Source: a virus
Strand: one strand, 5' to 3'
DNA: 64,000 bases
IMG/VR virus record: IMGVR_UViG_3300020057_000496
Span: 1 to 64,000 of that record
Shown: one piece after another, positions 20,899 through 49,772 of the stretch
How the letters are laid out: every line of letters begins with the position of its first letter
Position numbering within the stretch: the first letter of the stretch is position 1
Made by a program: the position numbers and the translations under genes
The notes under the pieces: generated by a model
Told to the model about the DNA's origin: nothing
Seen by the model: only the letters and a program-made list of their open reading frames with translations
The model's database searches: none

Positions 20899-21280
20899 CG
20901 TGACGGGGCAGCCACGGGCGCCTGGTCGCGGGGTAGTTACGTGGAAATTGTTTGTTTTCCTGACTCATCGCGAGAAAGATGCGGCGATCTCGCGGGTAAT
21001 GGAAGCCAAGGAAGTTGTTCGGATGGACAAGCGCTATCAGTTCCTGAACGAACCATACAGTGATGTTCCTCACTATACTACAGACCAGACATTAGTTGGT
21101 TCGATGTTGAACTACATTCTATCACGTAGTTTCTGTGTTGACCTGGAGTTATCTACTTCTGGTGCACACGTCATGCGTGTCCGCGACGCCAATAACGGGG
21201 TCGCTTTACACTACCACGACCTGCAGGTCTTAATAGGAGCGGCCGTACTTTTTACAGCCGGTGAATTGGTTTATGAGTGA
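20899..21280 (+). CDS. Hypothetical protein, start uncertain
   Basis: 126 residues if the GTG at 20899 is used; TTG at 20947 is another option. The frame runs back into transposon copy B, so the original 5' end may have been lost to the insertion. The C-terminal part (MLNYILSRSFCVDLEL, VLIGAAVLFTAGELVY) is hydrophobic but not clearly membrane-spanning. It overlaps the start of the protease gene. Confidence 0.4.
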
Positions 21281-22946
21281 CTGTTCGAATGAATTTGAAA
21301 CAAGCCGACGCGGCCGACTTATTGGTTGCTTCTTCCTTGCATTGATCGTCGTCCTTTGGTGTGCCTTTGCGTTCGCCTCGACGGTTATCCTTCCGACAGA
21401 GGACGACATGATCGACGCAAGCGACGTTGTCGCCGTCGCGAAGGTGACAAGCATTACTTCTTACGACACCGACGTGGGCATACGGACACTAGTAGACTTC
21501 GCAGTCAGTGAGGTACTGAAGGGAACCCCGCCGCCGGGACTGGCTGTCCGTGAACTTGGCGGCAAGGTCGGAGAAAATGTCTTCTGGATTCCGGGTTCCC
21601 CGACTTACCGGGTTGGCGAACGTGTGATGGTATTCCTTGACCAGCGGGAGGACGGGACTTATCGAACCAAGCTCCTTGATGCCGGTCGTGTTCCGGTTCT
21701 TCCTGACGGAGTTGCGCGGAGTATGTCTGGGGACACGCTGGACACCTTCAAGTCGAGACTCACAAGTCGAGTCCTGCAGCGTAAGCAGGAATTACAGTCC
21801 CGTTCGGCGAGAGCGGCCAGCGCGACCTTTATGGTTCAGCCAGCGCCCCTTTCCGGTCCTGCCGAGAGCCAGGCAGAATTTCGTTTCATGACCGATCCTC
21901 CGTCGCTCTGGCTGAACAGGCCAGTCATGGTCTACGGCGACCCCGCTGGTGACGCCAAGATTGGACCAGTCGAGTCAAGACGTGCCGTGGCTGACGCGGC
22001 GGCTTCATGGTCAAGCGAGGCGAACGTAATCTTCGCCTACGCCGGGGACACGCCAGCAGTTGGGTACGCATGTGTCCCGGACAAGCTACTCGTGCAGTTC
22101 CGGGATGTCAAGAACGACATCGAGGACCCCAGTAACTGCTCGGGCGTTTTGGCTATAGGTGGTTTCTGTACTAGTGGCCTAGTGAGCGGCAAGTACCGCA
22201 TTGCATCAGGGGCCGTAGTTTTTAATAATGGCTGGGAGGGCTGTTCGTTCTGGAGCGCAGACAATATCGCCGAAGTCATGACTCACGAGTTCGGCCATGC
22301 GGTAGGACTTGCTCATTCCGCCGAGAGTGGCCAGACCTCGACGCCACACCTGGCAGACGCAACGATGTACTGGACGGCCCATTTCGACGGGCGACGTACC
22401 GGTCTGCGTGCGTACGACAAGGGGGCCATTCAGTCCCTTTATGGTTCAGTCAGGGCCTCGCCTGTACCGACGCCAGTCCCAACCAGGACGCCAGTACCAA
22501 CTGCGACAGTAGTCCCAACGGCGACTCCGACACCTATCCCTACTCCGGTCCCGACAGCCACGACGACGCCCGGCCCGACTGGCTCACCGGCCGGTCGATT
22601 CCTTGAGGTCCGGCAACTCCTGATTAAAGGTTCTGCCCGGAGGGGGCGTTCGGGGACACTCACGTTCAAGCTCGTCACAACCGAGAAACTCCCGAAGGAC
22701 CGGCCGACTGTTTTGTTCGCCAGTGAACTAGGCGGCAGTGTCCTGAGTAATCAGAATATTCAGAACGTCCAGACGTACGGGGAAACCCTGACCTTCCGTG
22801 CTGTCAATGTACCAAGTATTTTTTATCGAACCAGTATCAGAGTGGTCGTGATCGTCGGGCAGCGAGTCGCATTCGAGACGCTGACTTGCACCGCGCGTGA
22901 TCTTCTGCTCGGTACTACTATTTACTGCAGCCTAATAAAGGACTAG
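21273..22946 (+). CDS. Secreted matrixin-type zinc metalloprotease
   Basis: 557 residues from ATG 21273 (GTG 21261 is a possible alternative). A basic start followed by a long hydrophobic segment (LIGCFFLALIVVLWCAFAFA) is a signal peptide or anchor. Near residue 338 the metzincin zinc site reads THEFGHAVGLAHS (HExxHxxGxxH), followed by a Met-turn-like ATMYW. A Pro/Thr linker of about 40 residues then leads to a C-terminal beta domain. Matrixins cleave extracellular proteins. A secreted protease is unusual in a phage and lies in an accessory region with a sulfatase; both could act on the host surface or matrix. The enzyme class is confident; the role is inference. Confidence 0.75.
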   Translation: MSDCSNEFETSRRGRLIGCFFLALIVVLWCAFAFASTVILPTEDDMIDASDVVAVAKVTSITSYDTDVGIRTLVDFAVSEVLKGTPPPGLAVRELGGKVGENVFWIPGSPTYRVGERVMVFLDQREDGTYRTKLLDAGRVPVLPDGVARSMSGDTLDTFKSRLTSRVLQRKQELQSRSARAASATFMVQPAPLSGPAESQAEFRFMTDPPSLWLNRPVMVYGDPAGDAKIGPVESRRAVADAAASWSSEANVIFAYAGDTPAVGYACVPDKLLVQFRDVKNDIEDPSNCSGVLAIGGFCTSGLVSGKYRIASGAVVFNNGWEGCSFWSADNIAEVMTHEFGHAVGLAHSAESGQTSTPHLADATMYWTAHFDGRRTGLRAYDKGAIQSLYGSVRASPVPTPVPTRTPVPTATVVPTATPTPIPTPVPTATTTPGPTGSPAGRFLEVRQLLIKGSARRGRSGTLTFKLVTTEKLPKDRPTVLFASELGGSVLSNQNIQNVQTYGETLTFRAVNVPSIFYRTSIRVVVIVGQRVAFETLTCTARDLLLGTTIYCSLIKD

Positions 22947-24080: not shown

Positions 24081-25328
24081 GTGAAAAAGATTCTCGTCGT
24101 AGCACTGCTTGGCCTACTGCTAACTCCCGATTTTTGCTGGGGAAAACCGAACATCCTGGTCGTAATCGCGGACGACATGGACTGGGTTACGTTCAACGCG
24201 ACGCCGGGCCTGGCCGAGATCGCCAGTCAGGGGGTGTTGTTCAATGCGGTCACGAGCACGCCGCTCTGCGGGCCTTCCAGGGCCTCGATCTTGACCGGCC
24301 GGGCCGCGCACAATCACCGTGTTCTGGGCAATGAGCGGAGCGCCCATAACGCGGCCTGGTACGCCAACGTACTTGGCAAGACTTTTGCTGACTACTGCCA
24401 GGGTGAAGGGTACCGGACGGTGATGGCCGGTAAGTACGCGAATCCATTCGACCAGCTCGACACGACTGGCTGGGATTCCTGGATTCCGCCCGAGGGGCGC
24501 GGCGAGCGCCAGGTTGGCCCATTCTGGCACGACGTGATGGTAGATCGGGTTGTCCTGGACATTGAGGCGCACCCGGACCAGCCTACGGTCGTCTGGTACA
24601 GTAGCACGATCCCCCACGGCCCCCTGATTCCGAGTAACGCCTACGCCGGGGTCATGGCAGGACTAACCCTACCAAAGGGGCCGAGCTTTAATGAGGCGGA
24701 CGTAAGTGACAAGGTGTCCTCCGTCTCGCTATTGCCGCTGTTTAGCGAGACTCAGCTAGTTGACCTAGAGAAGCGTTTCCGGCGGCGCGTGGAGATGTCG
24801 TTGTCGCTGGTGGACGGGATTCGGCGGCTGACAGAGGCACTGTCCGGCCGGCCGCTTTACGTTTTCTTCGTGTCCGACAACGGTTTTTTCGAGGGCCAGC
24901 ACCGAATCTTCCAGGGGAAGGGCTTGCCGTACGAAGAGGCGATCCGGGTGCCGATGTTCGTTGTTGGCGCAGGGGTCACGCCGGGTACCTCGCCGGCGTT
25001 AGTGTACGCCGGGGACATCGCGCCGACCGTCACCTCGCTCTGTGAGGCGAGTCCACGCGAAATGGACACGCATACATTAATCCCTCTTTTATCGAACCAC
25101 CTGCAGCCCTGGCGCAAGCGCGTTTTGGCCGAACACGGCTGGCGTGCGATCCGGACGGAGGTTCGGAAGCTGGTTCGATTTAGTGGAGGTGGTCGGGAGC
25201 TATTTCACCTTGGCGAGGACCCGTACGAGCTGTTGAGCAGGAGCAAGACTGTCCAGAGCCTAGAGGCCTACTTGGACAGGATGCTTGCTTGTTCGGGCGA
25301 AGATTGTTGGGAGATTGAGACAGAATAG
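24081..25328 (+). CDS. Sulfatase (formylglycine-dependent), secreted
   Basis: 415 residues from GTG behind AGGAGGAGG. A signal peptide (KKILVVALLGLLLTPDFCWG) is followed by the sulfatase fold: NILVVIADDMDW with the metal-binding Asp pair, then LCGPSRASILTGR at about residue 58, the C-x-P-S-R site whose Cys is converted to formylglycine, and later FVSDNGFFEGQHR with metal ligands. It would remove sulfate esters from polysaccharides or other molecules outside the cytoplasm. Activity depends on a host formylglycine-generating enzyme. It has its own promoter and operators, so it behaves as a separately regulated accessory gene. The family is confident; the substrate is unknown. Confidence 0.8.
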   Translation: MKKILVVALLGLLLTPDFCWGKPNILVVIADDMDWVTFNATPGLAEIASQGVLFNAVTSTPLCGPSRASILTGRAAHNHRVLGNERSAHNAAWYANVLGKTFADYCQGEGYRTVMAGKYANPFDQLDTTGWDSWIPPEGRGERQVGPFWHDVMVDRVVLDIEAHPDQPTVVWYSSTIPHGPLIPSNAYAGVMAGLTLPKGPSFNEADVSDKVSSVSLLPLFSETQLVDLEKRFRRRVEMSLSLVDGIRRLTEALSGRPLYVFFVSDNGFFEGQHRIFQGKGLPYEEAIRVPMFVVGAGVTPGTSPALVYAGDIAPTVTSLCEASPREMDTHTLIPLLSNHLQPWRKRVLAEHGWRAIRTEVRKLVRFSGGGRELFHLGEDPYELLSRSKTVQSLEAYLDRMLACSGEDCWEIETE

Positions 25329-26200: not shown

Positions 26201-27484
26201 CAACAGCGAGCGCAGGCCCCGTCCTTTAGGGTGGGGTAAGCGAGCCATAAATGCGTCAACGCCTACAGCCCACGACGGACGAAGCCGAAGCACTTCTGGA
26301 GCATGCTGCTCAGGCACGCTTCGTCTGGAATCTCGCCCTTGAGCAGGCGAACCAGTACCGCCACGATCGTGGTCCGACGCCAGGATGGGCTGCGCAATGC
26401 CGCCAACTCGTGCAACTTCGGGCGGAGCACAACTGGATTGGTACGGGATCGTCAAGCATTCAGCAGCAGGCGCTCAAAGACCTGGCGCAGGCGTTTATTA
26501 ACTGGTGGAAACGTCCGGGCCACTTTGGGCGTCCGACTTGGCGAAAGCGTGGGCAGCACGAAGGCTTCCGCGTCGTGAACGTCACCGAGAGGTCAGTCGA
26601 GATTCTGCACCGGAGGGCGGCCACCGTCTTCGTTCCCAAGGTTGGTCGAGTACGCTTTCGAATCACACGACCGGTGCCGCTCGGCATCAAGTCGTATCGC
26701 ATCCGACGGGACGCGGCGGGTCGCTGGTGGCTGGCGTTCGCGGTCAAGCCGCAGGCGCTCACGAGAGGCGAAGGCGAGGTCGGTATCGACCGTGGCGTCG
26801 CACAGTCGCTAGCATTCTCCGACGGGACGTTTAGTCAGACACCGTCGCTGTCGTTGCCCGAACGGCGCCACCTGTTGCGCCTACAGCGCAAACTCGCGCG
26901 GCGGGTGAAGGGCAGTGTCCGTCGTGGCCGGGTCAAGCTCGCCATCGCTCGGCTGCGGGCGCGCGAGTCGGACCGCGCAAAAGACTGGGTCGAGAAGCAG
27001 ACGACGCGGATCGTCCGCGCGTCGCGTCTCGTGGTGATCGAGAAGCTTCAGATTCGGAACATGGTGCGTAGCGTCAAGGGCTCCATCGAGGAGCCCGGCA
27101 AGAACGTCCGCCAGAAGGCGGGCCTGAGCCGTGTGATCCTGGCGCAGCGCTGGGGCTTGTTTGCCAGGCGCCTACGAGAGAAGTCGGAACTAGCCGGTGT
27201 TGAGCTGATCGAAGTCAACCCGGCGTACACGTCGCAGCAGTGCTATGCGTGCGGCCACACGGCACCGGAAAATCGCGAGAGCCAAGCGAAATTCAGATGC
27301 CAATCGTGTGGCCGCTCAGCGAACGCAGACACCAACGCGGCGAAGAATATCCTTGCGGCAGGGCGTGCCGTCAATGCGCGTGGAGGCACAACGGTGCCGC
27401 TGAAGCGCGAACCTACTCGGGATGTACGCCGTGCCGCGTAACTTCCGAGGAATCCCCGTCCCTTCAGGGCGGGGAGGATGTCAA
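26201..27484 (+). mobile_element. Complete IS200/IS605-family TnpB element (no TnpA), copy D
   Basis: 1284 bp. The left flank is TTAC; the right terminus is TCAA. These are the same left and right cleavage tetranucleotides described for the IS608 group. Subterminal hairpins lie at both ends (GCCCCGTCC-tttagg-GTGGGG on the left, CCCGTCC-cttca-GGGCGGG on the right). Only tnpB is present, so movement needs a Y1 transposase in trans. A CAA microhomology makes the boundary ambiguous by three bases. Two deleted copies (A, B), a decayed one (C) and a truncated one (E) lie in this window. Confidence 0.8.
26251..27441 (+). CDS. tnpB: TnpB RNA-guided nuclease
   Basis: 396 residues, ATG shortly after the left-end hairpin. 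The three RuvC motifs are intact: VGIDRG with the first Asp (about residue 179), VVIEKL with the Glu (about residue 262), and NADTNAAKNI with the last Asp (about residue 358). A four-Cys zinc ribbon (CYACG ... CQSCG, about 331-355) lies between the second and third. TnpB proteins use a right-end-derived RNA to cut the empty donor site next to a short motif, helping the element to be retained. The length is typical. The 3' end of the gene probably overlaps the guide-RNA scaffold. Confidence 0.85.
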   Translation: MRQRLQPTTDEAEALLEHAAQARFVWNLALEQANQYRHDRGPTPGWAAQCRQLVQLRAEHNWIGTGSSSIQQQALKDLAQAFINWWKRPGHFGRPTWRKRGQHEGFRVVNVTERSVEILHRRAATVFVPKVGRVRFRITRPVPLGIKSYRIRRDAAGRWWLAFAVKPQALTRGEGEVGIDRGVAQSLAFSDGTFSQTPSLSLPERRHLLRLQRKLARRVKGSVRRGRVKLAIARLRARESDRAKDWVEKQTTRIVRASRLVVIEKLQIRNMVRSVKGSIEEPGKNVRQKAGLSRVILAQRWGLFARRLREKSELAGVELIEVNPAYTSQQCYACGHTAPENRESQAKFRCQSCGRSANADTNAAKNILAAGRAVNARGGTTVPLKREPTRDVRRAA

Positions 27485-28464: not shown

Positions 28465-28613
28465 CGCTAGCCTTTCTGTTCCTTTCGATCTAATCTCTCC
28501 GACAATCAAGTCGGGCACACGGAGTGGCCTTCCTCCCGGAAGGCGGTAAGAGGACTAGGACCCGCCCTTCGTGCTGCTTTCATGACCGACCTAACTCGGA
28601 AGGAGAGTTGAGA

Positions 28614-30440
28614 TTGAAGCCTAGCGCATGTATCGAAGTACTCCGGGCCACGGTCAAGATGAGTTCTCCGGTTTACCTGTGGGGACAGCCAGGATGTATC
28701 GCTGCCCAGACTAAGCTAAGTTATGTATCGCGTGGCCCTGACGGCAAGACACGTTCCACTAAGGGTGGTTCAATTGAACGACTCTACCAGGTGTTCCATG
28801 GTCTGACCGGACCAGGAAAGGGGCGCTATCAGGTAGCCCCAGTTGATTCGCAATTTTGGGTTTCGTCCGTAGACGACGAAGGGCGAATCTTCAAGAACCG
28901 CGTACTGGACGTAGTCCAGAGTGGCCAGAGGAAGTGTCTCCGACTCCGGACTAAGTCCGGCCTTGAAATCGAGGCGACCGACGACCACGAGTTTATGTCC
29001 GACGGGGAGTTTGCGGCACTTCGAGACTTACGGCCCGGTTCGGTCGTGGACGTACATACTAACAAGATCATCAATACGTCAACACGAAGGCCCAAGCGCA
29101 GTCGCGCCAGCCTCTCCGTACCTCACCATCCGTATGCCAGTACGCATGTGATTGAAAAGAAGTACACCTATAAGGCTCTTCCGTTGGCCAGAGCAATAGT
29201 GGAAGCTGACATGAATTCGCTCTCTATTGCCGAGTATCAGGCAAGGCTCAATAGTGGCGACCTTAGAGGGCTTCAGTTCCTTAAGAAGTCTGACGACGTT
29301 CACCACCGCGACGAGGATTGCACGAATGATGTGATCGAAAATCTTGAGGTTATTAGTCACACAGAGCACGCGCGACGCCACGGACTAAGGTATCAATCGT
29401 TACGTTACGTCACTACACGGGACGAAGTTGACTGGATTCAGCCGGTAGGTGTCAAGGAAACTTACGATCTCAAGATGGCTGGGCCATACCATAATTTTGT
29501 TGCAGCAAGTTTCGTCGTACATAACTGCGGCAAGAGCGATATCGTCAAGCGGGTAGCCAAGGAGCTAGAACTGCCGGTCATTGACATCCGCGCAGTCCTG
29601 CTCGACCCCGTTGATCTTCGGGGCATCCCGTACGTTCGTGACGGGGTCGCTCACTGGGCGTCGCCTTCGTTCCTCCCCCGCGACGGCGAGGGCATCATGT
29701 TCCTGGACGAGATCGCGAATGCGCCTCCGATGGTGCAGTCAGCACTCCTTCAACTTATTCTCGACGGCAAGGTCGGCGAGTATACAAAGCCGCCGGGCTG
29801 GCGTTTTGTCGCCGCGTCTAATCGCGTCGGCGACCGCGCGGGTAGCCATAAGATCATTTCGTCACTGGCGAATCGCTTTGCGTGCCACATCAACATGGAG
29901 GTTGACCACGAAGACTGGAATACCTGGGCAATAGAGGCCGGCATCGCCCCGGACATTCGTTCGTTCCTTAACTTCAAGCCGGCACTGCTGTCACAGTTTA
30001 ATCCGAACTCCGACGAGCCCGCATTTTCAACTCCAAGATCCTGGAAATTTGCCAGTGATCTTATCGCTAACATCCCGGAGGGGATGCACCTGCAAGTTCT
30101 TTCCGGTACGGTCGGGGCCGGATGTGCAGCCGAGTACGTTGCGTTCCGTGACGTGTATATGCGGATTCCGACGCTTGAGCAGATAGTCAAGGACCCCCAG
30201 AAGGTCAGCGTAAATAACGACCCGGCAACAAACTTTGCACTGGTCGGCGCACTTACCGACGCATGCGGGCGGCGTCCTAAGAATAAGGAAGTCCTGAACG
30301 CAGTCGTGGAGTTCATTTGCCGACTCCCGGCAGCGTTTGCGACCGTGTTCTTCCGTGACGTGTCACTCGTTGCTCCTATCACGATGAACCTACCCGGTAG
30401 TCGCGAGTGGGTACGCAAGCATCGTGGGACGATCGCGTAA
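28614..30440 (+). CDS. MoxR-type AAA+ ATPase split by an intein
   Basis: 608 residues from TTG 28614, placed six bases after AAGGAGAG; the longer upstream frame lacks a ribosome-binding site. The Walker A loop WGQPG-CGKSD is interrupted between G and C by a 277-residue intein. After the intein come Walker B IMFLDEIANAP, sensor-like FVAASNR and a helical lid domain. The spliced protein would be about 331 residues, normal for MoxR ATPases. These work as chaperones that insert metals or remodel partners together with a VWA protein, and the next gene encodes such a partner with a 1-bp TAATG overlap. Confidence 0.8.
   Translation: MKPSACIEVLRATVKMSSPVYLWGQPGCIAAQTKLSYVSRGPDGKTRSTKGGSIERLYQVFHGLTGPGKGRYQVAPVDSQFWVSSVDDEGRIFKNRVLDVVQSGQRKCLRLRTKSGLEIEATDDHEFMSDGEFAALRDLRPGSVVDVHTNKIINTSTRRPKRSRASLSVPHHPYASTHVIEKKYTYKALPLARAIVEADMNSLSIAEYQARLNSGDLRGLQFLKKSDDVHHRDEDCTNDVIENLEVISHTEHARRHGLRYQSLRYVTTRDEVDWIQPVGVKETYDLKMAGPYHNFVAASFVVHNCGKSDIVKRVAKELELPVIDIRAVLLDPVDLRGIPYVRDGVAHWASPSFLPRDGEGIMFLDEIANAPPMVQSALLQLILDGKVGEYTKPPGWRFVAASNRVGDRAGSHKIISSLANRFACHINMEVDHEDWNTWAIEAGIAPDIRSFLNFKPALLSQFNPNSDEPAFSTPRSWKFASDLIANIPEGMHLQVLSGTVGAGCAAEYVAFRDVYMRIPTLEQIVKDPQKVSVNNDPATNFALVGALTDACGRRPKNKEVLNAVVEFICRLPAAFATVFFRDVSLVAPITMNLPGSREWVRKHRGTIA
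28695..29525 (+). other. Intein with HNH homing endonuclease inside the MoxR P-loop
   Basis: 277 codons. It begins with Cys1 (CIAAQTKLS) and ends in FVVHN followed by extein Cys+1, the usual splice signals. TDDHEFM is the N-terminal block with the conserved His. An HNH motif (HHRDEDCTNDVIENLEV, about residue 230 of the precursor) marks the endonuclease, so this is an HNH rather than a LAGLIDADG intein. The insertion splits GxxGxGKS, so the ATPase is inactive until splicing. Confidence 0.85.
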
Positions 30441-32779
30441 TGTCAGGGGTAATCATTCCGGCTGATCCGACCCGTGTTGACCCCGATATCGAAAGGGCAA
30501 CACTGGAGGCTTACGAGAAGTCAGTCGTGTCACTCGTGCTCGGCACCGGAGCGCAGATGCGCTTCTTCGCCGCGCTCGTTATGCGAATGCGGTACAGTGT
30601 CGTGACGTGGATTCCGACCGCCGCCACTGACGGTCGGCAGATCTATCTCAATCCACAGTTCTGGCTCGACTTAACCCCAGCACAGCGCCGGACCGTACTA
30701 GCACACGAAGTCATGCACTGTGTCGAGAAACACACTGAACGACGCCAGCATCGCGACCCATACATATTCAATATCGCATGTTTTCCGGCGGGGACACTCT
30801 TGCCTGGCAATGTCCTGATTGAATCTGTAGCCAGTATGGTTTCCCATCTAGACGGTGAGTTAATTGAAGTTGCGCACCAAGGGGGAAAAATAAGTGCCAC
30901 CCCTGAGCATCCATTCTTTGTTCGAAAAAGAAAAAACAAAGTTGGCCTTACTCCGGTTCGCTTACTTGCGCCGGAGTGGGTCAAGGCGGAAAATATTCGT
31001 ATAGGCGATTACGTCTGCGTCCCGCGACTGGAACGCTATGGACTACGAGATGATGCGGTAATCAATCTCCATTCCTATATTAGGAATGGAATATCTAGCC
31101 GAGCAAATGGCAATAGAGCGGTTAAGTCCATTCCCCTCAATCAAGACACCGCGTGGCTAATTGGCCTCTATGTAGCCGAGGGTAGCGCTAGCCCTAGCGT
31201 TAGCTTCTCTCTTGGCTCACACGAGACTCATTTAGCAGATCGAATTAAGGCGATCGTATCATCGATTGGTTATTCGGCGAGTGTTTCGGTTAATGGGAGC
31301 AGCATGGCCGTAAACTTAGGGACGACCGTTCTTGGGCGATGGCTAAAGGCAAATGTCGGAACCGTAGCAAAGAATAAGCATATTCCCGATGTTATTCTTC
31401 GCCATAGCGACCCCTTGATTCGGCAAGCATTCCTTAAGGGTGTCGTTGATGGTGACGGGTGTACCCAAGTTCGTAATGGAAAGACCTGGATCGTGGTGGG
31501 TGTTTGTTCCCCGTCCCTTATTCGGGACATAATACTTCTCTTAGCGCAGGACGGACTTGGTGCTCGCGTCTCCACCCAGACACTCAAGCCGCGCTGGATT
31601 GGTAAAATGTATACTACTGTTCGGACAGTTATACATAACGTAACATGGAATCCCGATGGCCCCTCCAGGTCAATGAGGGAATTAAATGGTAATGTAGTAG
31701 TGTCCACTAATGCGCGGTATCGCACTGACGAACATGGTGTTTGGTATCCAGTAAAGAGCACTGAGCATTACCCGTACTCTGGTAATGTCTATAACTTAAC
31801 TAATACGCCAGATCATACTTATGTTGCCGAAAGTGTCTTAGTACACAACTGCGACCTCGAAATAAATTATATTCTCGAAGAAGCGAAGATGGAGTTCCCG
31901 AAGGACGCTTGTCTTCCGGGAAAGGGCGCGTTCGTCGGCACGGCTGGCAATCAGATTTCCGAGACATACTACGGACTCTTGCTCGAACAACAGCACAAGA
32001 AGACGGGCTTCTTTGGTCAAAAAGGGAAGGGCAAGGGCAAGGGCAAGGGCAAGGGCAGTCAAGACCCCGGCGGTCCGAACACTGACCCAGGTGGTTGTGG
32101 CGTAATCTTCGATAACTCACCAGGAGAGGCCGAACGCACGAAGCTGTCACTGGACTGGGACGTTGCGATCAAGCAGGCTGCGCAAGTGGCGAAGGATACA
32201 CAGGAACGCAGTCGCGGGACTATGCCTGGTTACTTCTCGAAGCTACTAGAGAAACTCCTGAAGCCACCTAAAATTCCCTGGTACTCCGAACTGCGTCAAT
32301 TCTTTACAGTCACGGCCAGGGATGACTATTCATGGGCATCACCTAATCGGCGCCATGTCGCGTCCGGGGTTTATCTGCCATCACTACGCTCCCAGCGCCT
32401 TGGCGAAATCTGTATGTTCGTTGATCTGTCTGGTTCGATGATGGGCGGAGATGACCTAGCACGTTGCGCAACCGAGATGACTGCCATTCTCGAAAACTAT
32501 CCGTCGAAGGTATGGATCGTATATCACGATACCCACGTTCGGACGGTACAGGAATGGACGCCGCTTGACGGTCCGATCGAATTCAAGGGGGACGGCGGCG
32601 GTGGAACCGACCACGTCCCTTGCTTTACTTGGATGGTGGAGCAGGGAATAGACCCGTGTGTCTCGATCTTCTTCACGGATCTCCAGACTAGGTTTCCGGT
32701 AGATCCACCGAGCCACCCGGTATTCTGGGTAACTGTCTCCGGTGGTAGTGCCCCATTCGGGCGTGTACTTGAGATTTGA
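30440..32779 (+). CDS. VWA / zinc-peptidase-domain partner of MoxR, split by an intein
   Basis: 779 residues from the ATG of a TAATG overlap. The N-terminal domain carries H-E-x-x-H (LAHEVMHCVEKH, about residue 88) of the metallopeptidase-like domain found in VWA-containing proteins; the conserved N-I-A-x-D that follows is split by an intein after NIA. After the intein come a linker with GKGKGKGKGKG, and a C-terminal VWA domain with MIDAS motif DLSGSMMGG (about residue 661) and TDLQT. The spliced product would be about 422 residues. Together with the upstream ATPase it forms a MoxR-VWA chaperone pair; its target in the phage is unknown. Confidence 0.8.
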   Translation: MSGVIIPADPTRVDPDIERATLEAYEKSVVSLVLGTGAQMRFFAALVMRMRYSVVTWIPTAATDGRQIYLNPQFWLDLTPAQRRTVLAHEVMHCVEKHTERRQHRDPYIFNIACFPAGTLLPGNVLIESVASMVSHLDGELIEVAHQGGKISATPEHPFFVRKRKNKVGLTPVRLLAPEWVKAENIRIGDYVCVPRLERYGLRDDAVINLHSYIRNGISSRANGNRAVKSIPLNQDTAWLIGLYVAEGSASPSVSFSLGSHETHLADRIKAIVSSIGYSASVSVNGSSMAVNLGTTVLGRWLKANVGTVAKNKHIPDVILRHSDPLIRQAFLKGVVDGDGCTQVRNGKTWIVVGVCSPSLIRDIILLLAQDGLGARVSTQTLKPRWIGKMYTTVRTVIHNVTWNPDGPSRSMRELNGNVVVSTNARYRTDEHGVWYPVKSTEHYPYSGNVYNLTNTPDHTYVAESVLVHNCDLEINYILEEAKMEFPKDACLPGKGAFVGTAGNQISETYYGLLLEQQHKKTGFFGQKGKGKGKGKGKGSQDPGGPNTDPGGCGVIFDNSPGEAERTKLSLDWDVAIKQAAQVAKDTQERSRGTMPGYFSKLLEKLLKPPKIPWYSELRQFFTVTARDDYSWASPNRRHVASGVYLPSLRSQRLGEICMFVDLSGSMMGGDDLARCATEMTAILENYPSKVWIVYHDTHVRTVQEWTPLDGPIEFKGDGGGGTDHVPCFTWMVEQGIDPCVSIFFTDLQTRFPVDPPSHPVFWVTVSGGSAPFGRVLEI
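30779..31849 (+). other. Intein with LAGLIDADG endonuclease in the VWA protein
   Basis: 357 codons, from Cys1 (CFPAGTLLPG) to SVLVHN followed by Cys+1. ATPEHPFFV is the His-containing N-terminal block. Two LAGLIDADG-type helices are visible: LIGLYVAEGS (about residue 240 of the precursor) and LKGVVDGDG (about 333). The DNA is visibly AT-richer than the flanking extein. It separates NIA from CDLEIN, next to the Asp expected to be the third zinc ligand. Confidence 0.85.
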
Positions 32780-33276: not shown

Positions 33277-33596
33277 GTAGCACGGGGCTCGCTGACATCA
33301 CCGCAGGCGAAGAGGTAGTCGAGGGGATCATTATCCTTCACTTCGGCCGACGTAGCGTGCTGATCATTGACGGGTACGGGTCGCTTGATAAGGTCAAACA
33401 AGAAGAGTTCTACACGCGAATGTACTCGGAATTAGGTACATTTGGGATCGACAAGATAGATGCGTTCGTCGTCGAGGTAAGGTGGACCTCCGCGGGGGAG
33501 GTCGTGAAAGAGGCGTATCACTTCATGGAGAAGTGTACGATGACGGACATCTACGCAGTCCACAACAAACTTTATGAGTCCATCTTTCTCGAATGA
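33273..33596 (+). CDS. Hypothetical protein
   Basis: 107 residues from the GTG that overlaps the preceding TGA; AAGGTGGG lies upstream. The pattern of alternating strands (IIILHFGRRSVLIIDG, IDAFVVEVRW) suggests a small alpha/beta protein. No family recognised. Confidence 0.5.
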   Translation: MSSTGLADITAGEEVVEGIIILHFGRRSVLIIDGYGSLDKVKQEEFYTRMYSELGTFGIDKIDAFVVEVRWTSAGEVVKEAYHFMEKCTMTDIYAVHNKLYESIFLE

Positions 33597-34095
33597 GCGT
33601 CACTTGAAGAACTACTCAATCGAAACTGACCTATATTCCGGAGTCGGCCAGGCAGTCCAGGATCACTGCCGTATGGCTGGCTTGACTTGTGCGGGGATTG
33701 TAATTGCTACCTACCGGGTTGATTTTGGATTGATCCCCGCAAGTATGCATGTACGGAAGGTATGGCACGGGAATACCCGTGAGGACGTACACCGTTCAAT
33801 ACTCTCCAGGTCAAACCTACTACTTATTCCCTATATTGGCCAACTCACCTCGGATCTTGACCTGTTGTACAATACGGCAAGAAAGGGGCGCCGCGTCGTG
33901 TTCAAGTGCGACATGTCGATCGAAACTGGCGAGGAACACGGCGGGCTTCTGTCTCCGATCAGAACAGTGCCGTGGGGGAGCTATAAGGATTATTCTAATT
34001 ACGGAGCAATTATAGCAGTTATGGGTAATACCGAAACCGAACGTCCCGGCATCTATCAGGTAGCAAGAACATGGCTGAGCAGGGTATTCTCTTAG
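33574..34095 (+). CDS. Hypothetical protein
   Basis: 173 residues; the ATG lies 23 bp inside the upstream gene, and TTG 33604 is an alternative. Contains TARKGRRVVFKCDMSIETGE and a C-terminal aromatic region. It overlaps the next gene by 25 bp. No recognised motif. Confidence 0.45.
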   Translation: MSPSFSNERHLKNYSIETDLYSGVGQAVQDHCRMAGLTCAGIVIATYRVDFGLIPASMHVRKVWHGNTREDVHRSILSRSNLLLIPYIGQLTSDLDLLYNTARKGRRVVFKCDMSIETGEEHGGLLSPIRTVPWGSYKDYSNYGAIIAVMGNTETERPGIYQVARTWLSRVFS

Positions 34096-34863: not shown

Positions 34864-34888
34864 TGCGTGTCTGAAGGATAACCGTCAA

Positions 34889-35686
34889 ATGATAACCGTC
34901 AATGGTACACCAGTCCGTGCGGACATCTTCCCAGACAAGACTTCGCAAGTCTGGAAACTCCCGCCGGAACTTACGCAAGCTCGGACGTGCGAGGTGGTCT
35001 GGAGGTTCGAAGAGGAACGAGAGGTCATTGACCTGCTCAGTCTGCGGAAGCTCCTCGACACCCAGGACTGGCTACTGTCCATTCCTTACTTCCCTTACGC
35101 CAGACAGGACAAGCCAGTATCGAACAACGAGACGTTCAGTCGCTCTGTTATTCTCGGGCTGCTCAAAACACTAGGATGTCGGCTAATCACGACCGTAGAT
35201 GTTCATTCCGGGTTCGACAAGGAATCTATCTACATCTTCAATCGCGAAGTGTCAGACTTCCACCGATTTGTTTTGGACGCGACCGAGCCGAACGTCGTCG
35301 TCTTTCCGGACAAGGGGGCCAGGTTACGTTATCCATATTTGGTTGAGCTTCCGTACGTCCAGTACGTCTACGAGAAGACACGCAATCCACTGACTGGCGA
35401 AATTACCGGACACGGCCTAGAGGGCCAACTGGCCATGATCAGCCCGGCCCATGTTCAGTTAGCACCGAAGACACGTTTTTTGATTGTAGACGACCTATGT
35501 GACGGCGGCGCGACGTTTCTTTCGATCAAGAACGATCTCGACCGGAGGTGTCAGGGTGCGGACGTAAGTCTTGCGGTGACACACGGGGTATTCTCGAAAG
35601 GGAAGACGCTTCTAACGAATGCCGGGATTGAACTCTTCTATACGAACAGCCTGCTCGCTAACCCAGAAGGATTCAAGGTATGCTAG
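34889..35686 (+). CDS. PRPP synthetase-like protein (possible ADP-ribose pyrophosphate synthetase)
   Basis: 265 residues, shorter than the usual 310-320 of cellular PRPP synthetases. Visible motifs: PYFPYARQDK (flexible loop region), TTVDVHS (metal-binding), VVFPDKGA, and the PRPP/ribose-5-phosphate loop FLIVDDLCDGGATF. The enzyme class transfers pyrophosphate from ATP to a ribose phosphate. The 3' end overlaps the NAMPT-like gene by 7 bp, so the two act together. In phage NAD+ reconstitution pathway 1 (NARP1), a protein of this look (Adps) pyrophosphorylates ADP-ribose instead. Sequence alone does not tell which substrate is used here. Confidence 0.75.
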   Translation: MITVNGTPVRADIFPDKTSQVWKLPPELTQARTCEVVWRFEEEREVIDLLSLRKLLDTQDWLLSIPYFPYARQDKPVSNNETFSRSVILGLLKTLGCRLITTVDVHSGFDKESIYIFNREVSDFHRFVLDATEPNVVVFPDKGARLRYPYLVELPYVQYVYEKTRNPLTGEITGHGLEGQLAMISPAHVQLAPKTRFLIVDDLCDGGATFLSIKNDLDRRCQGADVSLAVTHGVFSKGKTLLTNAGIELFYTNSLLANPEGFKVC

Positions 35687-37143
35687 TCATTCCACCAGAA
35701 TTCAAGATAGACATCTACAAGGCCGGACATCTTTTTCAGATGCCTCCGGGGACAACTGAGGTTTATTCGAACTTCACCCCGCGCGCATCGCGCTTGCCTG
35801 GCGTTGATAAGGTTGTCGTCTGGGGCCTGCAGCCGTTCTTTGTGCGCGACCTAATCGACGCCTGGGACGACGAGTTCTTCGGCAAGCCCCTCGATAAGAT
35901 CCTGGCTCGCTACCAGGCCCGCATGGACCGCATGATTGGTCCGGGTACGATCACCGTAGGCCACATCGCGGCACTACATAAGCTGGGATATCTGCCGGTG
36001 CGGATCAAGGCACTGCCGGAAGGTTCGCTTTGTCCGATGCGTGTGCCGTTTATGACTTGGCGGAACACGCACCAGGACTTCGCGTGGGTTACGAACTACA
36101 TCGAGACTCACATGTCGTGCTCAATCTGGCACCCGATAACGTCGGCGACCACATGCTGGGAGTTTTATAAGGAATTCTACCGATCGGCGAAGCGGTCGGC
36201 CCCTGACAAGCTGGACTTCGCCTCAGTCCAGGGGCACGACTTCTCTATGCGCGGGCAAACTTCCCTGGAATCAGCAACGGCGGCTAGTGCTGCGCACCTC
36301 CTTTCGTTCATTGGTACCGACACGGTTCCGGCGCTGGACTACCTGGAAGAGCACTACGGCCCGGACGACAAGATTACCGGCGTAAGTGTGCGTGCGTCGG
36401 AGCACATGGTGATGCAGATGGGTGGTAAAGATACTGAGCTGGAGACGTACCGACGACTGATCTCTGACGTAGCGCCAAGTGGTATCATATCGATCGTTTC
36501 AGATACATGGGACTACTGGAACGTAATCGACAATATCCTCCCAGCACTCAAGGACGTTATCATGGCACGCGACGGGCGGGTCGTGGTCAGGCCAGATTCC
36601 GGCAGTCCCGTCAAGATACTTTGTGGAGACGAAGAGCAGTCGGCGGGGTCGTCGGCACACAAGGGCACTATCGAGGCTCTGTATGATTCGTTCGGTGGTT
36701 CACTAAATAACGTGAACTGCAAGGAGCTTGACCCACACATCGGAGTAATATACGGTGACAGCATTACTCGCGAGCGCCAGAAGGAGATCAACGAACGCCT
36801 CTGGCAGAAGCGTTTCGCATCAGTCAACTGGGTCGCCGGTGTCGGTTCGTTTGCATTACAGCATGTCACTCGTGACACATTCGGCTTCGCTATCAAGACC
36901 ACGCACGGAGTTATCGACGGCGTTCCGGTAGATCTCTTCAAGGACCCCAAGACAGACGACGGAACTAAGCGTTCAGCACGCGGGTACCTGCGCGTGAACG
37001 AAGACTACACACTGAAGGAGTGCTGCACTCCGGAAGAAGAGGAAGGGGGGCTACTGGAAGTAGTGTTCGAAAATTCGATGCTAGTTCGGAAGCACAGTTT
37101 CAGTGAGGTCAGAGAGAGACTTCACTCGAACCTCGAAAAGTAA
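35680..37143 (+). CDS. Nicotinamide phosphoribosyltransferase-like protein (NAMPT/Namat)
   Basis: 487 residues, typical for NAMPT (about 470-490). Motifs include DIYKAGHLFQMPPGT at the N-terminus, VQGHDFSMRG, VSVRASEHM with the likely phospho-accepting His, VVVRPDSGSP and GVIYGDSIT. NAMPT makes NMN from nicotinamide and PRPP; its NARP1 relative (Namat) joins nicotinamide to ADP-ribose pyrophosphate and gives NAD+ directly. The start codon lies 7 bp inside the prs-like gene. No NMN adenylyltransferase is seen in the window, which slightly favours the NARP1 reading. The family is confident; the exact reaction is open. Confidence 0.8.
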   Translation: MLVIPPEFKIDIYKAGHLFQMPPGTTEVYSNFTPRASRLPGVDKVVVWGLQPFFVRDLIDAWDDEFFGKPLDKILARYQARMDRMIGPGTITVGHIAALHKLGYLPVRIKALPEGSLCPMRVPFMTWRNTHQDFAWVTNYIETHMSCSIWHPITSATTCWEFYKEFYRSAKRSAPDKLDFASVQGHDFSMRGQTSLESATAASAAHLLSFIGTDTVPALDYLEEHYGPDDKITGVSVRASEHMVMQMGGKDTELETYRRLISDVAPSGIISIVSDTWDYWNVIDNILPALKDVIMARDGRVVVRPDSGSPVKILCGDEEQSAGSSAHKGTIEALYDSFGGSLNNVNCKELDPHIGVIYGDSITRERQKEINERLWQKRFASVNWVAGVGSFALQHVTRDTFGFAIKTTHGVIDGVPVDLFKDPKTDDGTKRSARGYLRVNEDYTLKECCTPEEEEGGLLEVVFENSMLVRKHSFSEVRERLHSNLEK

Positions 37144-37157
37144 GAAGGAGATACGCC

Positions 37158-37259
37158 ATGGCCGACGATCGCGCTATTAGAGATCTCGTCATCCCGCCGT
37201 CTTCGTATGTCTATATCCAGGACAAGCAGACTGGGCAGATCAATACCATCGCAAGCTAG
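37158..37259 (+). CDS. Small conserved-looking protein (33 residues)
   Basis: ATG behind AAGGAG at ideal spacing, 14 bp after the NAMPT-like stop. The product (ending SSYVYIQDKQTGQINTIAS) is short, and its stop is directly followed by a strong terminator, so it is the last gene of the operon. Function unknown. Confidence 0.5.
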   Translation: MADDRAIRDLVIPPSSYVYIQDKQTGQINTIAS

Positions 37260-37263
37260 TACG

Positions 37264-37306
37264 AATACGGGGTCCCCGATCCAACGAAAGGGACCCCGTA
37301 TTTGTT
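37264..37306 (+). terminator. Strong intrinsic terminator after the NAD+ operon
   Basis: A perfect 13-bp stem (AATACGGGGTCCC / GGGACCCCGTATT) with a 13-base loop, followed by TGTT. It begins five bases after the 33-residue gene's stop codon. Confidence 0.7.
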
Positions 37307-37320
37307 CGAATGGAGAAAAA

Positions 37321-37414: not shown

Positions 37415-37633
37415 GTGGAGGTCGCTACGCTACGGATGTTACGCGAGAAGCTAGGGCTGAATCAGGCGTCGCTAGCGGCCAAGCTCGGCAAGAGTCAGGG
37501 ACAGGTATCCCGGACGGAGGCAAACGACGACCCGCGCATTTCGACGATCAAAGAATACGTGGAGGCATTAGGTGGCAAACTCGAAGTTACGGTCAGGTGT
37601 GGTACGACAGAAATCAAGCTCGCGTTCGATTAG
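37415..37633 (+). CDS. HTH (XRE/Cro-type) DNA-binding protein
   Basis: 72 residues from GTG. A classic helix-turn-helix: LRMLREKLGLNQASLAAKLG, then KSQGQVSRTE, then ISTIKEYVEALGGKLEVTV, which is the pattern of HigA/XRE regulators with the C-terminal strand. It could be a repressor or an antitoxin. It lies just after a terminator and upstream of an intein-containing phosphoesterase. Confidence 0.7.
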   Translation: MEVATLRMLREKLGLNQASLAAKLGKSQGQVSRTEANDDPRISTIKEYVEALGGKLEVTVRCGTTEIKLAFD

Positions 37634-37644
37634 TACGGGCTTAT

Positions 37645-39222
37645 ATGTCAGTTGATTTCGTAACCTCAGACGTTCACTTTCTACATGCGAACATCATCAA
37701 GTACTGTAACCGGCCGTTCAGTAGTGTCGAAGAACAAACTGAGTACTTGATAGAGAACTGGAATAGAGTAGTCGGCAAAGACCACGTCGTCATGAATCTC
37801 GGCGACTTCATTTGGACCAAGGACCCCGACGCTTGGGTAGGAATCGTCAACCGACTGAACGGCAAGCAGCAGATCGTCGTCGGAAACCACGACCACTTGC
37901 TTACCGAAAAGGACGGCACGCCAAAGAACTACGCCGACCTGGCGCCACAGATCCAGGAATTGATCAAAACCGGGAAGATCATTTCAATCAAGTCGATGTG
38001 TGAGATCAAACTCGCCGGACGCTGGTTTCACTACGTACACTTCCCGTTGGGGGCCTGGCATCGGTCGCTCTACGGAAGTGCGATGATCCACGGACACTGC
38101 GTTGATGAAGAAACAGAGATCATGACAACGAGCGGATGGAGGGGTATTCGTAATATTGCAATTGGTGACGGAATATATTCATTCGATCCAAGTAGGTGCG
38201 AATTTGTACTAGATACTATCAGTCAGATTGTGAAACAAAACTACCATGGTGACGTGTATGAATTAGACACTAGGAACATATCGTTTCGCGTTACTAGTGA
38301 GCATACCATGGTACATTTTAGTCGGGGTGGTAAGTTTTTGGAATCCCCAGCTAGTGTGCTGCTAAAGCAAAATACCATGAGGCTACTTAAGGCTGGAGTG
38401 CGTAGCGGAACTCGACTGAATTTATCCGACGATCTACTTGCCCTACTTATTCTTATTGCTGCCGATGGTTCAATTAAAACAGAAACGCAACTTGCACGGA
38501 TCAAGGTTAAGCGCCCACATAAGATTGCTTATATTAAGCAGGTTTTATGTAACTTACAATTGCAATATAGTAAATACAAGCAAAAGGATGCCTCTTGGTC
38601 GTTTAATTTTTATATTCCACCAGAGCTGTTGTCATTTACTATAAAGGGACTAGATAGAAAATTAATGAGTTGTAGCCCCGATCAATTTAAGGTCATACTA
38701 GGGGCCTATGCAAATTCGGATGGTTCAGTAAATGGTAATGGCGTTATTATCTATTCCGCAAAAGAAGCAGAGATAGACCTTCTCCAGGAACTTGCTGTAA
38801 TCTCTGGTTTTAGCGCAACTAAATTCACAAGGAGACATGGGTTCTCTGGTGGATTACGACATCAATTATCAGTTTATCCTAATGCAATAAGTCGCGTGCA
38901 GTCGATTCGTAGTAAACTCAAGGTCGAAAGAGTATATGGAGAGTTATTTTGGTGTATAAAATGTAAGAATCAGAATTTCATAATGCGTCGCAATGGCAAG
39001 GTTCATCTTACTGGTAATTCGCATGGTAAGTATCGGCTTTCTTGGCCACAGTCGGTTACTGACGGCAAGGCAATGGATGCCGGGGTTGACAGTCGTTCGA
39101 TCGCAACCAATACCCTTGACGACAAGGGACTATATCGCCCATTCTGCATGCGGACGGAAGTGGCCCCACTAATTGCCAGTATCAAGTCCCGCAACCAGAA
39201 CGACTTCAACGGCGACGCGTAA
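37645..39222 (+). CDS. Metallophosphoesterase split by an intein
   Basis: 525 residues from ATG 37645. Motifs in order: TSDVHF, NLGDFIW, VVGNHDH, then HGH interrupted by a 307-residue intein and resumed as SHGKYRLSW. The spliced protein is about 218 residues, typical of the small calcineurin-like phosphoesterases in phages, with the last metal motif G-H-S-H rebuilt only after splicing. It differs in subgroup from the phosphoesterase at 18324. The substrate is unknown. Confidence 0.8.
   Translation: MSVDFVTSDVHFLHANIIKYCNRPFSSVEEQTEYLIENWNRVVGKDHVVMNLGDFIWTKDPDAWVGIVNRLNGKQQIVVGNHDHLLTEKDGTPKNYADLAPQIQELIKTGKIISIKSMCEIKLAGRWFHYVHFPLGAWHRSLYGSAMIHGHCVDEETEIMTTSGWRGIRNIAIGDGIYSFDPSRCEFVLDTISQIVKQNYHGDVYELDTRNISFRVTSEHTMVHFSRGGKFLESPASVLLKQNTMRLLKAGVRSGTRLNLSDDLLALLILIAADGSIKTETQLARIKVKRPHKIAYIKQVLCNLQLQYSKYKQKDASWSFNFYIPPELLSFTIKGLDRKLMSCSPDQFKVILGAYANSDGSVNGNGVIIYSAKEAEIDLLQELAVISGFSATKFTRRHGFSGGLRHQLSVYPNAISRVQSIRSKLKVERVYGELFWCIKCKNQNFIMRRNGKVHLTGNSHGKYRLSWPQSVTDGKAMDAGVDSRSIATNTLDDKGLYRPFCMRTEVAPLIASIKSRNQNDFNGDA
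38098..39018 (+). other. Intein with LAGLIDADG-type endonuclease in the phosphoesterase
   Basis: 307 codons, from Cys1 (CVDEETEIMTTSG) to VHLTGN followed by extein Ser+1. VTSEHTMVHF is the N-terminal His block. Endonuclease helices read LLILIAADGS and ILGAYANSDGS; the second is degenerate. The DNA is much AT-richer than the flanking gene, consistent with recent arrival. Confidence 0.85.
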
Positions 39223-48392: not shown

Positions 48393-48690
48393 TAAGATTC
48401 TCCTTAAGTGGTTCAGTCAAAGGCTCAATACCATACAAATTACGGAGGACGTTCTCTGGCGAACCACCTGCTTCATTAAGAATATTCTTAGAAGCAGCTT
48501 TCTTAGTTTTATTACGGTTTACATCTCTAAGATCGTCCAAAAGAACCAACCACTTACCCTCTGAGCTATGGTATTAATGAGCCGAAAAATGGTCTGGATT
48601 ATCATAGTAAAAATCTAGTTTTTTGACTCCTGGTATCTCAAGTCTATCTACATACTCCTTGAACTTAAGATATCTCCGATCTTTACCTAC
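48385..48690 (-). pseudogene. Broken gene with an in-frame TAA
   Basis: One leftward frame is protein-like on both sides of a TAA at 48574-48576: before it DRRYLKFKEYVDRLEIPGV and DFYYDNPDHFSAH, after it YHSSEGKWLVLLDDLRDVN and NILNEAGGSPENVLRN. No start codon precedes the first part, which runs into the end of the CCA-enzyme gene. The whole would be a charged protein of 100 or more residues, perhaps endonuclease-related, now decayed. Readthrough is less likely. Confidence 0.4.
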
Positions 48691-49772
48691 TCCGAACGGA
48701 AGATACTCCTTAGCTCTGCTTGGTACCTCACCTCGACATCTTCGCGGATAGGGTGTCCTTCGAACTTGACGGCCGACAGTCTAGGCAGGGCGGTTCGAAG
48801 AAAGGATGTCAATTGATTGTCGAGTACATATTCGTGTACGGCGAGAAACATATCCGTGTACGTCCTGGTTTGTTTCCAGCATGACAATAAATCGACTTCA
48901 GTGAAGTTCTCGGCGTGCTGGACCCATTCGGCAATAGTCTTGTAGCGCCCGATGTCCGACTTAGAATACCCCAGCCTAGTACCGAACGCCTCGATTGCCG
49001 CCCGATCCAGGAGAGACAAGAGGCAACCGATACGTACGTCGAGCGGTACCAGTGCTGCTGCGGCGACGGCCAGGAGCGGCAGTGCCCCATGAGTAACTTC
49101 CGGAAACCACCAACTCAGACAGTCGGCGTCATGAAGGGACAAGAAGAATTCACTTGCCCCACGCGCCGTCATCGCCCGGTGGAATTCTTCACGCACTCGT
49201 TCGTGCGACAACAGCGGCAACTCCGGCGATGTCCGGCGCATCATCCGGACAGTATCCGGGTGAATCCGGTAGCCGAACGACGCAGCGAACCTGGCGGCGC
49301 GAATGGTCCGGAGTGGGTCCTCCGCGAATGCGTCCGACGTATGCCGGATTAGTCGAGCCTTGATGTCAAGCTCCGCATTGTGTGGGTCAATCAGTCCGTC
49401 ACTCGGGTGATATGCCGCCGAGTTTATGGTCAGGTCGCGTCGGAAGAGATCGGTTCCGAGATCCGCCGCCGGATACCACGCAAAGCCGTGATAGCCTTGG
49501 CCCTGCTTCTTCTCCCCCCGCGCAAGTGCGATCTGGACGCCAGGGAAGCGAGGGTGTTCGAATACGGGGAAATCCGCCTTGATCGGCGTACACCCGGCAG
49601 CCAGTAGATGGTCCAGTCCTCCGACAACCACAGTGTCAATGTCTTTTATCGAACCAACTTCTTCGCCGTTAAGTGCCCGGACAGTATCCCGGACCGCGCC
49701 GCCGACTACGTATACCTTGAGACGGAGGAATACCTCAAGGTCGCGGATGAGTGAATCGAATTGAGTGAACAG
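48687..49772 (-). CDS. tRNA nucleotidyltransferase / CCA-adding enzyme-like
   Basis: About 361 residues if translation starts at CTG 49772 (AGGGGG upstream); the first GTG (49631) would lose the catalytic motif. The class II nucleotidyltransferase signature is clear: VYVVGGAVRDTVRAL then KDIDTVVVGG, followed by RDLTINSAAYHPSDGLIDP and RTIRAARFAASFGYRI, the RNA-binding and neck regions. It would add CCA to tRNAs; the tRNA in this window lacks an encoded CCA. The missing normal start is odd: a sequence error, a CTG start or coupling from the upstream gene, whose stop is in the same frame. Confidence 0.75.
   Translation of the reverse strand: MFTQFDSLIRDLEVFLRLKVYVVGGAVRDTVRALNGEEVGSIKDIDTVVVGGLDHLLAAGCTPIKADFPVFEHPRFPGVQIALARGEKKQGQGYHGFAWYPAADLGTDLFRRDLTINSAAYHPSDGLIDPHNAELDIKARLIRHTSDAFAEDPLRTIRAARFAASFGYRIHPDTVRMMRRTSPELPLLSHERVREEFHRAMTARGASEFFLSLHDADCLSWWFPEVTHGALPLLAVAAAALVPLDVRIGCLLSLLDRAAIEAFGTRLGYSKSDIGRYKTIAEWVQHAENFTEVDLLSCWKQTRTYTDMFLAVHEYVLDNQLTSFLRTALPRLSAVKFEGHPIREDVEVRYQAELRSIFRSE

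Follow-up and report, generated by a model that had tools for sequence, protein, structure and literature searches.

The DNA considered here, referred to as the window, comprises positions 1 to 64,000 of a linear viral record of 166,852 bp that may be incomplete and that is represented here by the window plus loci L167–L172. Because genes for tape-measure, portal and major capsid proteins are present in the record, its source is a large uncultivated tailed phage. A megablast comparison of the first 25 kb with 50,697 phage records returned no relatives, and scans for phage relatives using two other proteins of the window found none for one and a single short locus for the other. Within the window, two intact ORFs lie on the plus strand, an Adps homologue of 265 aa (34889–35686) and a Namat homologue of 487 aa (35680–37143), each with an ATG start and an AAGGA-type ribosome-binding site some 9 nt 5′ of it at normal spacing; the probable site of the first gene occupies 34874–34878 (plus strand), ahead of the ATG at 34889. 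The two share the 7 bp ATGCTAG (35680–35686), in agreement with an earlier sequence-only reading that had described two full-length genes with a 7-bp overlap. Their matches to NF006629, PHROG 448 and PHROG 619, detailed below, demonstrate that these ORFs are not a product of chance. Adps (ADP-ribose pyrophosphate synthetase) is often mis-annotated as ribose-phosphate pyrophosphokinase, and Namat (nicotinamide ADP-ribose transferase) as NAMPT or nicotinate phosphoribosyltransferase.

Downstream of the Namat gene there follow, in order, a 33-aa ORF (MADDRAIRDLVIPPSSYVYIQDKQTGQINTIAS; 37158–37259, plus strand) and a hairpin (37261–37305, plus strand). The latter has a folding energy of −29.5 kcal/mol when 37255–37320 is folded (z = −5.4), with none of 200 shuffled sequences being equally stable; it is real, strong and terminator-like, though its U-tract is weak. 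The strong terminator previously placed behind the pair thus stands with regard to the stability of the hairpin, but is qualified by this weak U-tract and by the intervening ORF. The 33-aa product has a good Shine–Dalgarno site and no match in Pfam or PHROG, and is possibly encoded by a third gene of the operon. The candidate promoter that had been suggested ahead of the genes was dropped, as promoter-like sites on both strands of the upstream region are about as frequent as in shuffled sequence (3 versus 2.1 ± 1.2), with no excess.

The 265-aa protein matches PHROG 619 at E = 5e-42. In a tree of 66 proteins, comprising the window protein, 59 Adps-like proteins and six canonical Prs (that of E. 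coli and those of bacterial genomes also bearing a Namat-type gene), it falls within the Adps clade and apart from all six Prs (SH-aLRT 100), with a protein from a viral contig (L064, 44 %) as its closest relative. The catalytic residues R72, D74, H106, D141, K163, R165, D201 and D202 are retained, as are 12 of 12 residues that are invariant in the family (Y67, D74, H106, P140, D141, G143, K163, R165, G170, D201, D202 and H232). Three positions invariant in Prs are altered, with G93, A132 and N200 corresponding to P69, S107 and G170, respectively. The ribose-phosphate loop (residues 201–210; codons at 35489–35518, plus strand, placed by alignment) reads DDLCDGGATF as opposed to DDMIDTGGTL in E. 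coli Prs, a form common to DyoEdafos, to most relatives and to the felixounavirus warpig, a comparison phage related to Bas63. Near the N-terminus an unusual FPDKT replaces FxDGE, with FSDKT found in NrsA of ICP1, a protein that works in vivo (PMC11559045).

An AlphaFold2 model of this protein (pLDDT 86.5) displays the Prs fold with a TM-score of approximately 0.7, and the likeness to Prs extends to the catalytic Lys, Arg, His and Asp; identity is, however, only about 20 %, and both the ribose-phosphate and the flexible loops differ, the latter region in the window containing K-x-R-N-x-x-TG-x-I. Assignment as a canonical Prs was rejected on the basis of its position outside the Prs clade, a TIGR01251 score of 61.5 bits against a cut-off of 113, and a loop that conforms to neither DDxxDTGGT nor DTAGT. 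The short length of 265 residues, which had been taken as favouring NARP1, has little diagnostic weight, with the Adps-like proteins assembled here running from about 240 to 350 aa. Since the residues by which Adps chooses ADP-ribose over ribose-5-phosphate have been called obscure (PMC12774641), it is membership of the clade that leads us to infer a preference for ADP-ribose in the window enzyme.

The 487-aa protein matches PHROG 448 at E = 4e-167 and scores 472 bits against NCBIfam NF006629 (cut-off 405), a model that does not tell NAMPT from Namat. By sequence, the closest solved structures are those of Namat (9w5x/9w5w, E = 2e-136). A fold search with its AlphaFold2 model (pLDDT 93.5) likewise returns 9w5x/9w5w first (E = 1e-55), the top match 9w5x being the Namat–nicotinamide structure, followed by HdNadV and by human NAMPT at around 1e-40. 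In a tree of 70 proteins, 66 Namat-like sequences (the window, SPbetaL1, DyoEdafos, ICP1 and 62 more) are split from the NAMPTs of human/rat, Xanthomonas, KVP40 and phiKp8 with an SH-aLRT of 100, whilst the window protein itself has an end branch of 0.96 and no firm placement inside the clade. Neither protein of the pair, therefore, groups with cellular Prs or NAMPT, this phylogeny being a check that the sequence-only reading had proposed. Clade membership alone is no proof of Namat activity, as NadV of Haemophilus ducreyi (HdNadV; 9ke8, a structure with bound NMN) is a member of that clade whilst carrying Glu, Gln and Arg in place of the clamp described below.

The adenine selectivity clamp of Namat, described by Lan et al., is needed for the use of ADPR-PP (PMC12774641). 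In the window it comprises R38, F391, H395, T397 and D399. R38 is equivalent by alignment to R40 of SPbetaL1 and provides the stacking residue of the clamp loop, a role that Lys or Tyr plus the following residue can fill instead of Arg (codon at 35791–35793, plus strand), and the clamp-helix motif GSFALQHVTRD spans residues 389–399 (codons at 36844–36876, plus strand), with F391 and H395 at adenine-contact positions. The motif has Phe at its third and His at its seventh position, as in DyoEdafos, and Leu at its fifth, where Tyr is usual; an A-L pair replaces the T-Y (393–394) of nearly all the other sequences. With regard to the NAD+ contacts of SPbetaL1 Namat, 18 of 20 are identical in the window, and the two that differ (Ser for A362, His for Y396) equal the residues of DyoEdafos Namat. 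NAMPTs, in contrast, display Val/Lys, Ala/Gly and Lys/Gln/Glu at the three adenine-contact sites. The phosphate-binding S190 and S391 of SPbetaL1 are also Ser in the window, but Gly in NAMPT. The catalytic centre is complete, with F188, D214, R304 and H242 corresponding to F189, D215, R306 and the catalytic His of SPbetaL1. The clamp and the adjacent Adps gene, both of which the window has, appear to carry most of the case for Namat, and judged on its sequence the 487-aa protein is a Namat and not an ordinary NAMPT, with ADPR-PP and nicotinamide as its predicted substrates. As the clamp separates Namat from NAMPT (PMC12774641), it and the Adps-type residues provide stronger evidence than the clues on which the earlier preference for NARP1 over Prs plus NAMPT was founded; that preference is upheld by these features and by both trees.

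Several known systems are close to the pair. The NARP1 of the Bacillus phage SPbetaL1 (9w5w, 9w5x) resembles the window in its gene pair, their order and their overlap or abutment, and in Namat the clamp Arg and Phe are the same; nevertheless, Namat identity is about 46 %, the Adps loop is DDLSSFGGTF rather than DDLCDGGATF, and Tyr396 occupies the clamp position that is His in the window. The Mycobacterium phage DyoEdafos (gp77 Adps, gp79 Namat) shares the clamp Arg, Phe and His as well as a DGG-type Adps loop, but harbours a cADPR-cleaving RyDEP gene between the two, whereas no RyR-domain gene (PF02026) was found across the record at E ≤ 1. The nrsAB genes of ICP1 (orf228/orf229) have in common with the window FxDKT for FxDGE and an intact clamp, but differ in having Lys and Tyr-Tyr in place of the clamp Arg, Phe and His, at a Namat identity of approximately 46 %. 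The highest Namat identities (52–54 %) are to NARP1-like Bacteroidota chromosomal pairs and to viral contig L069, which also possess an intact clamp and a DGG-type Adps. Such close relatives with an intact clamp (50–54 %; genome contigs L097–L165) are widespread on Bacteroidota chromosomes; the pairs there differ in that a Nudix/NadM-like gene commonly adjoins and that the Adps-type gene, though near, is often non-adjacent. Finally, NAMPT (human, Xanthomonas and KVP40 NadV) and HdNadV share with the window Namat its fold and the catalytic residues for nicotinamide and ribose, but have no adenine clamp and convert PRPP to NMN.

Amongst viral relatives, an Adps gene lies within 5 kb of Namat in 58 of 64 distinct loci. 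Neighbours that recur in these 64 are macro (5), NADAR (4) and Nuc_deoxyri_tr2 (6) genes, as plain counts in which several contigs may be related phages. One contig carries Adps, Namat, NADAR (PF08719, E 1e-48), Nuc_deoxyri_tr2 (PF15891, E 4e-40) and Macro (PF01661, E 1.5e-9) genes in a row (L012:4193–7836), and in two others (L018 and L034) a macro gene overlaps the end of Namat; ADP-ribose-handling neighbours occur at NARP1 loci in L010, L018, L034, L064, L007, L062, L071, L041, L042, L058 and L067. By analogy to RyDEP in DyoEdafos, the products of these genes could liberate ADP-ribose held in conjugates or signals and so supply NARP1, and loci such as L012 are possibly extended NARP1 operons. 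The only neighbour family shared between the viral NARP1 loci and the window is an intein-bearing phosphoesterase, present in one other locus.

Taken as a whole, the pair is very probably a NARP1 operon of Adps and Namat, with its reactions and counter-defence role projected from characterised homologues. A competing explanation is ordinary salvage, in which a small Prs would form PRPP from ribose-5-phosphate, NAMPT would form NMN, and an NMNAT of the host could complete the synthesis, boosting NAD+ supply. Both proteins are indeed distant homologues of Prs and NAMPT, the bacterial relatives, with their adjoining Nudix/NadM-like genes, have traditionally been taken as prs-nadV salvage operons, HdNadV with its bound NMN shares the Namat clade, and a characterised Namat retains PRPP-to-NMN activity in vitro (PMC12774641). 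Against this, the window has a full adenine clamp that HdNadV and the NAMPTs are missing, the 265-aa protein sits apart from the canonical Prs and departs from their invariant states at P69, S107 and G170, and the flanking DNA examined of KVP40 and phiKp8, phages with a canonical NAMPT, contains no Adps-like gene. The absence of a nearby NMN adenylyltransferase, noted previously, extends to the whole 166,852-bp record, potentially incomplete as it is: PF01467 gave no match at E ≤ 1, whilst detecting its target in 14 of 14 control genomes, and no Nudix family was found across the record. This makes phage salvage of the KVP40 type unlikely, insofar as the record is complete. With both trees and the clamp ruling out canonical Prs plus NAMPT salvage as the main reading, we regard this alternative as very unlikely.

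It is also conceivable, if improbable, that a genuine NARP1 serves the phage's own metabolism, recycling ADP-ribose from ADP-ribosylation during infection rather than countering defence. NARP1 homologues reside on many bacterial chromosomes (also PMC12774641), so this chemistry is not solely one of counter-defence, and the macro and NADAR genes of some viral relatives could free ADP-ribose from conjugates. Neither these two families nor RyR genes were found in the 166,852-bp record, however; those phage NARP1 pairs that have been tested act in vivo against NADase defences (PMC11559045; PMC12774641), and nrsAB of ICP1 carries a cost when defence is absent (PMC11559045). Least credible of all is a degenerating NARP1, in which a loss of ADPR-PP specificity would account for the long branch and for the unusual clamp helix. 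The end branch of 0.96, the change of T393-Y394 to A-L and the replacement of the adenine-contact Tyr by His fit such decay, but both genes are whole, every catalytic residue is kept and the overlap is intact. Moreover, the clamp His also occurs in the active Namat of DyoEdafos and in LeBron, Shewanella and Paenibacillus relatives, and position 394 is absent from the adenine contacts listed for the Namat crystal structure (PMC12774641).

The surroundings of the pair contain several further genes. Approximately 0.8 kb upstream (33574–34095, plus strand) is the gene of a 173-aa protein that weakly matches the SLOG family of circularly permuted YpsA proteins (PF12694), its 22.5 bits falling short of the cut-off of 26.2. 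In conflict systems of bacteria, SLOG domains of the YpsA-like kind interact with variant cADPR (PMC9503650), hence this protein may bear on NAD+-based defence. That it binds or opens cyclic ADP-ribose signals and feeds linear ADP-ribose to Adps and Namat, as a second route to the role of RyDEP, is a highly speculative proposal; OneUp and A3Wally encode DprA/SLOG-like proteins in the vicinity of NARP1, but the window protein displays no similarity to these. Three probable inteins occur within 11 kb around the pair, all on the plus strand, at 28524–30440, 30407–32779 and 37597–39222 (PF14890 E-values of 1e-7, 7e-11 and 0.016, the last being weak); their hosts are a MoxR-type ATPase, a DUF2201/VWA protein (with a LAGLIDADG endonuclease) and a metallophosphoesterase-like protein, respectively. 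Further upstream lie an IS605-family TnpB/OrfB with a Cas12f-like TNB domain (26251–27441, plus strand), a second copy of which exists elsewhere in the record, a sulfatase-family protein (24081–25328, plus strand; PF00884, E = 4.5e-26) and a matrixin-type peptidase (21261–22946). The sulfatase is unusual for a phage, and possibly degrades surface glycans. A tRNA nucleotidyltransferase-like protein is encoded at 48687–49631 (minus strand) and, as polynucleotide kinase and RNA ligase families are also present in the record, a tRNA/RNA repair set is suggested, which would be another type of counter-defence that repairs damage. The record additionally harbours a patatin-like phospholipase and a type IIG restriction-methylation-like protein.

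In the proposed pathway, Adps would convert ADP-ribose and ATP to ADPR-PP and AMP, placing pyrophosphate onto the free ribose, and Namat would join ADPR-PP with nicotinamide to yield NAD+ and PPi directly, without an NMN adenylyltransferase. ADP-ribose and nicotinamide are the leftovers of the TIR, SIR2 and SEFIR defence NADases, such that the pair, with the products of these enzymes as its inputs, would restore NAD+ once abortive infection has begun. Precedent for this is provided by ICP1 nrsAB, a system of the same type, which in vivo increases NAD+ and overcomes Nezha (SIR2-HerA) (PMC11559045). In other phages, NARP1 chemistry has brought back NAD+ or growth in the face of Nezha and Kongming, and the same holds for a bacterial pair facing SPARSA (PMC11559045, PMC12774641), whilst Adps and Namat of DyoEdafos produce NAD+ in vitro (PMC13232231). 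By analogy to these homologues, direct NAD+ synthesis and counter-defence are likewise predicted for the window pair, an evident though divergent new representative of a pathway of counter-defence known from other phages.

NARP1 is among the few counter-defences that mend damage and do not block one particular defence, and for this reason works against many NADase systems. The copy described here extends its reach to a divergent phage for which the phage collection holds no close counterpart at the DNA level, and its Namat is well suited to gauging the extent of clamp variation that the enzyme tolerates. More generally, where Prs and NAMPT annotations occur together, the clamp motif should be checked before salvage is called.
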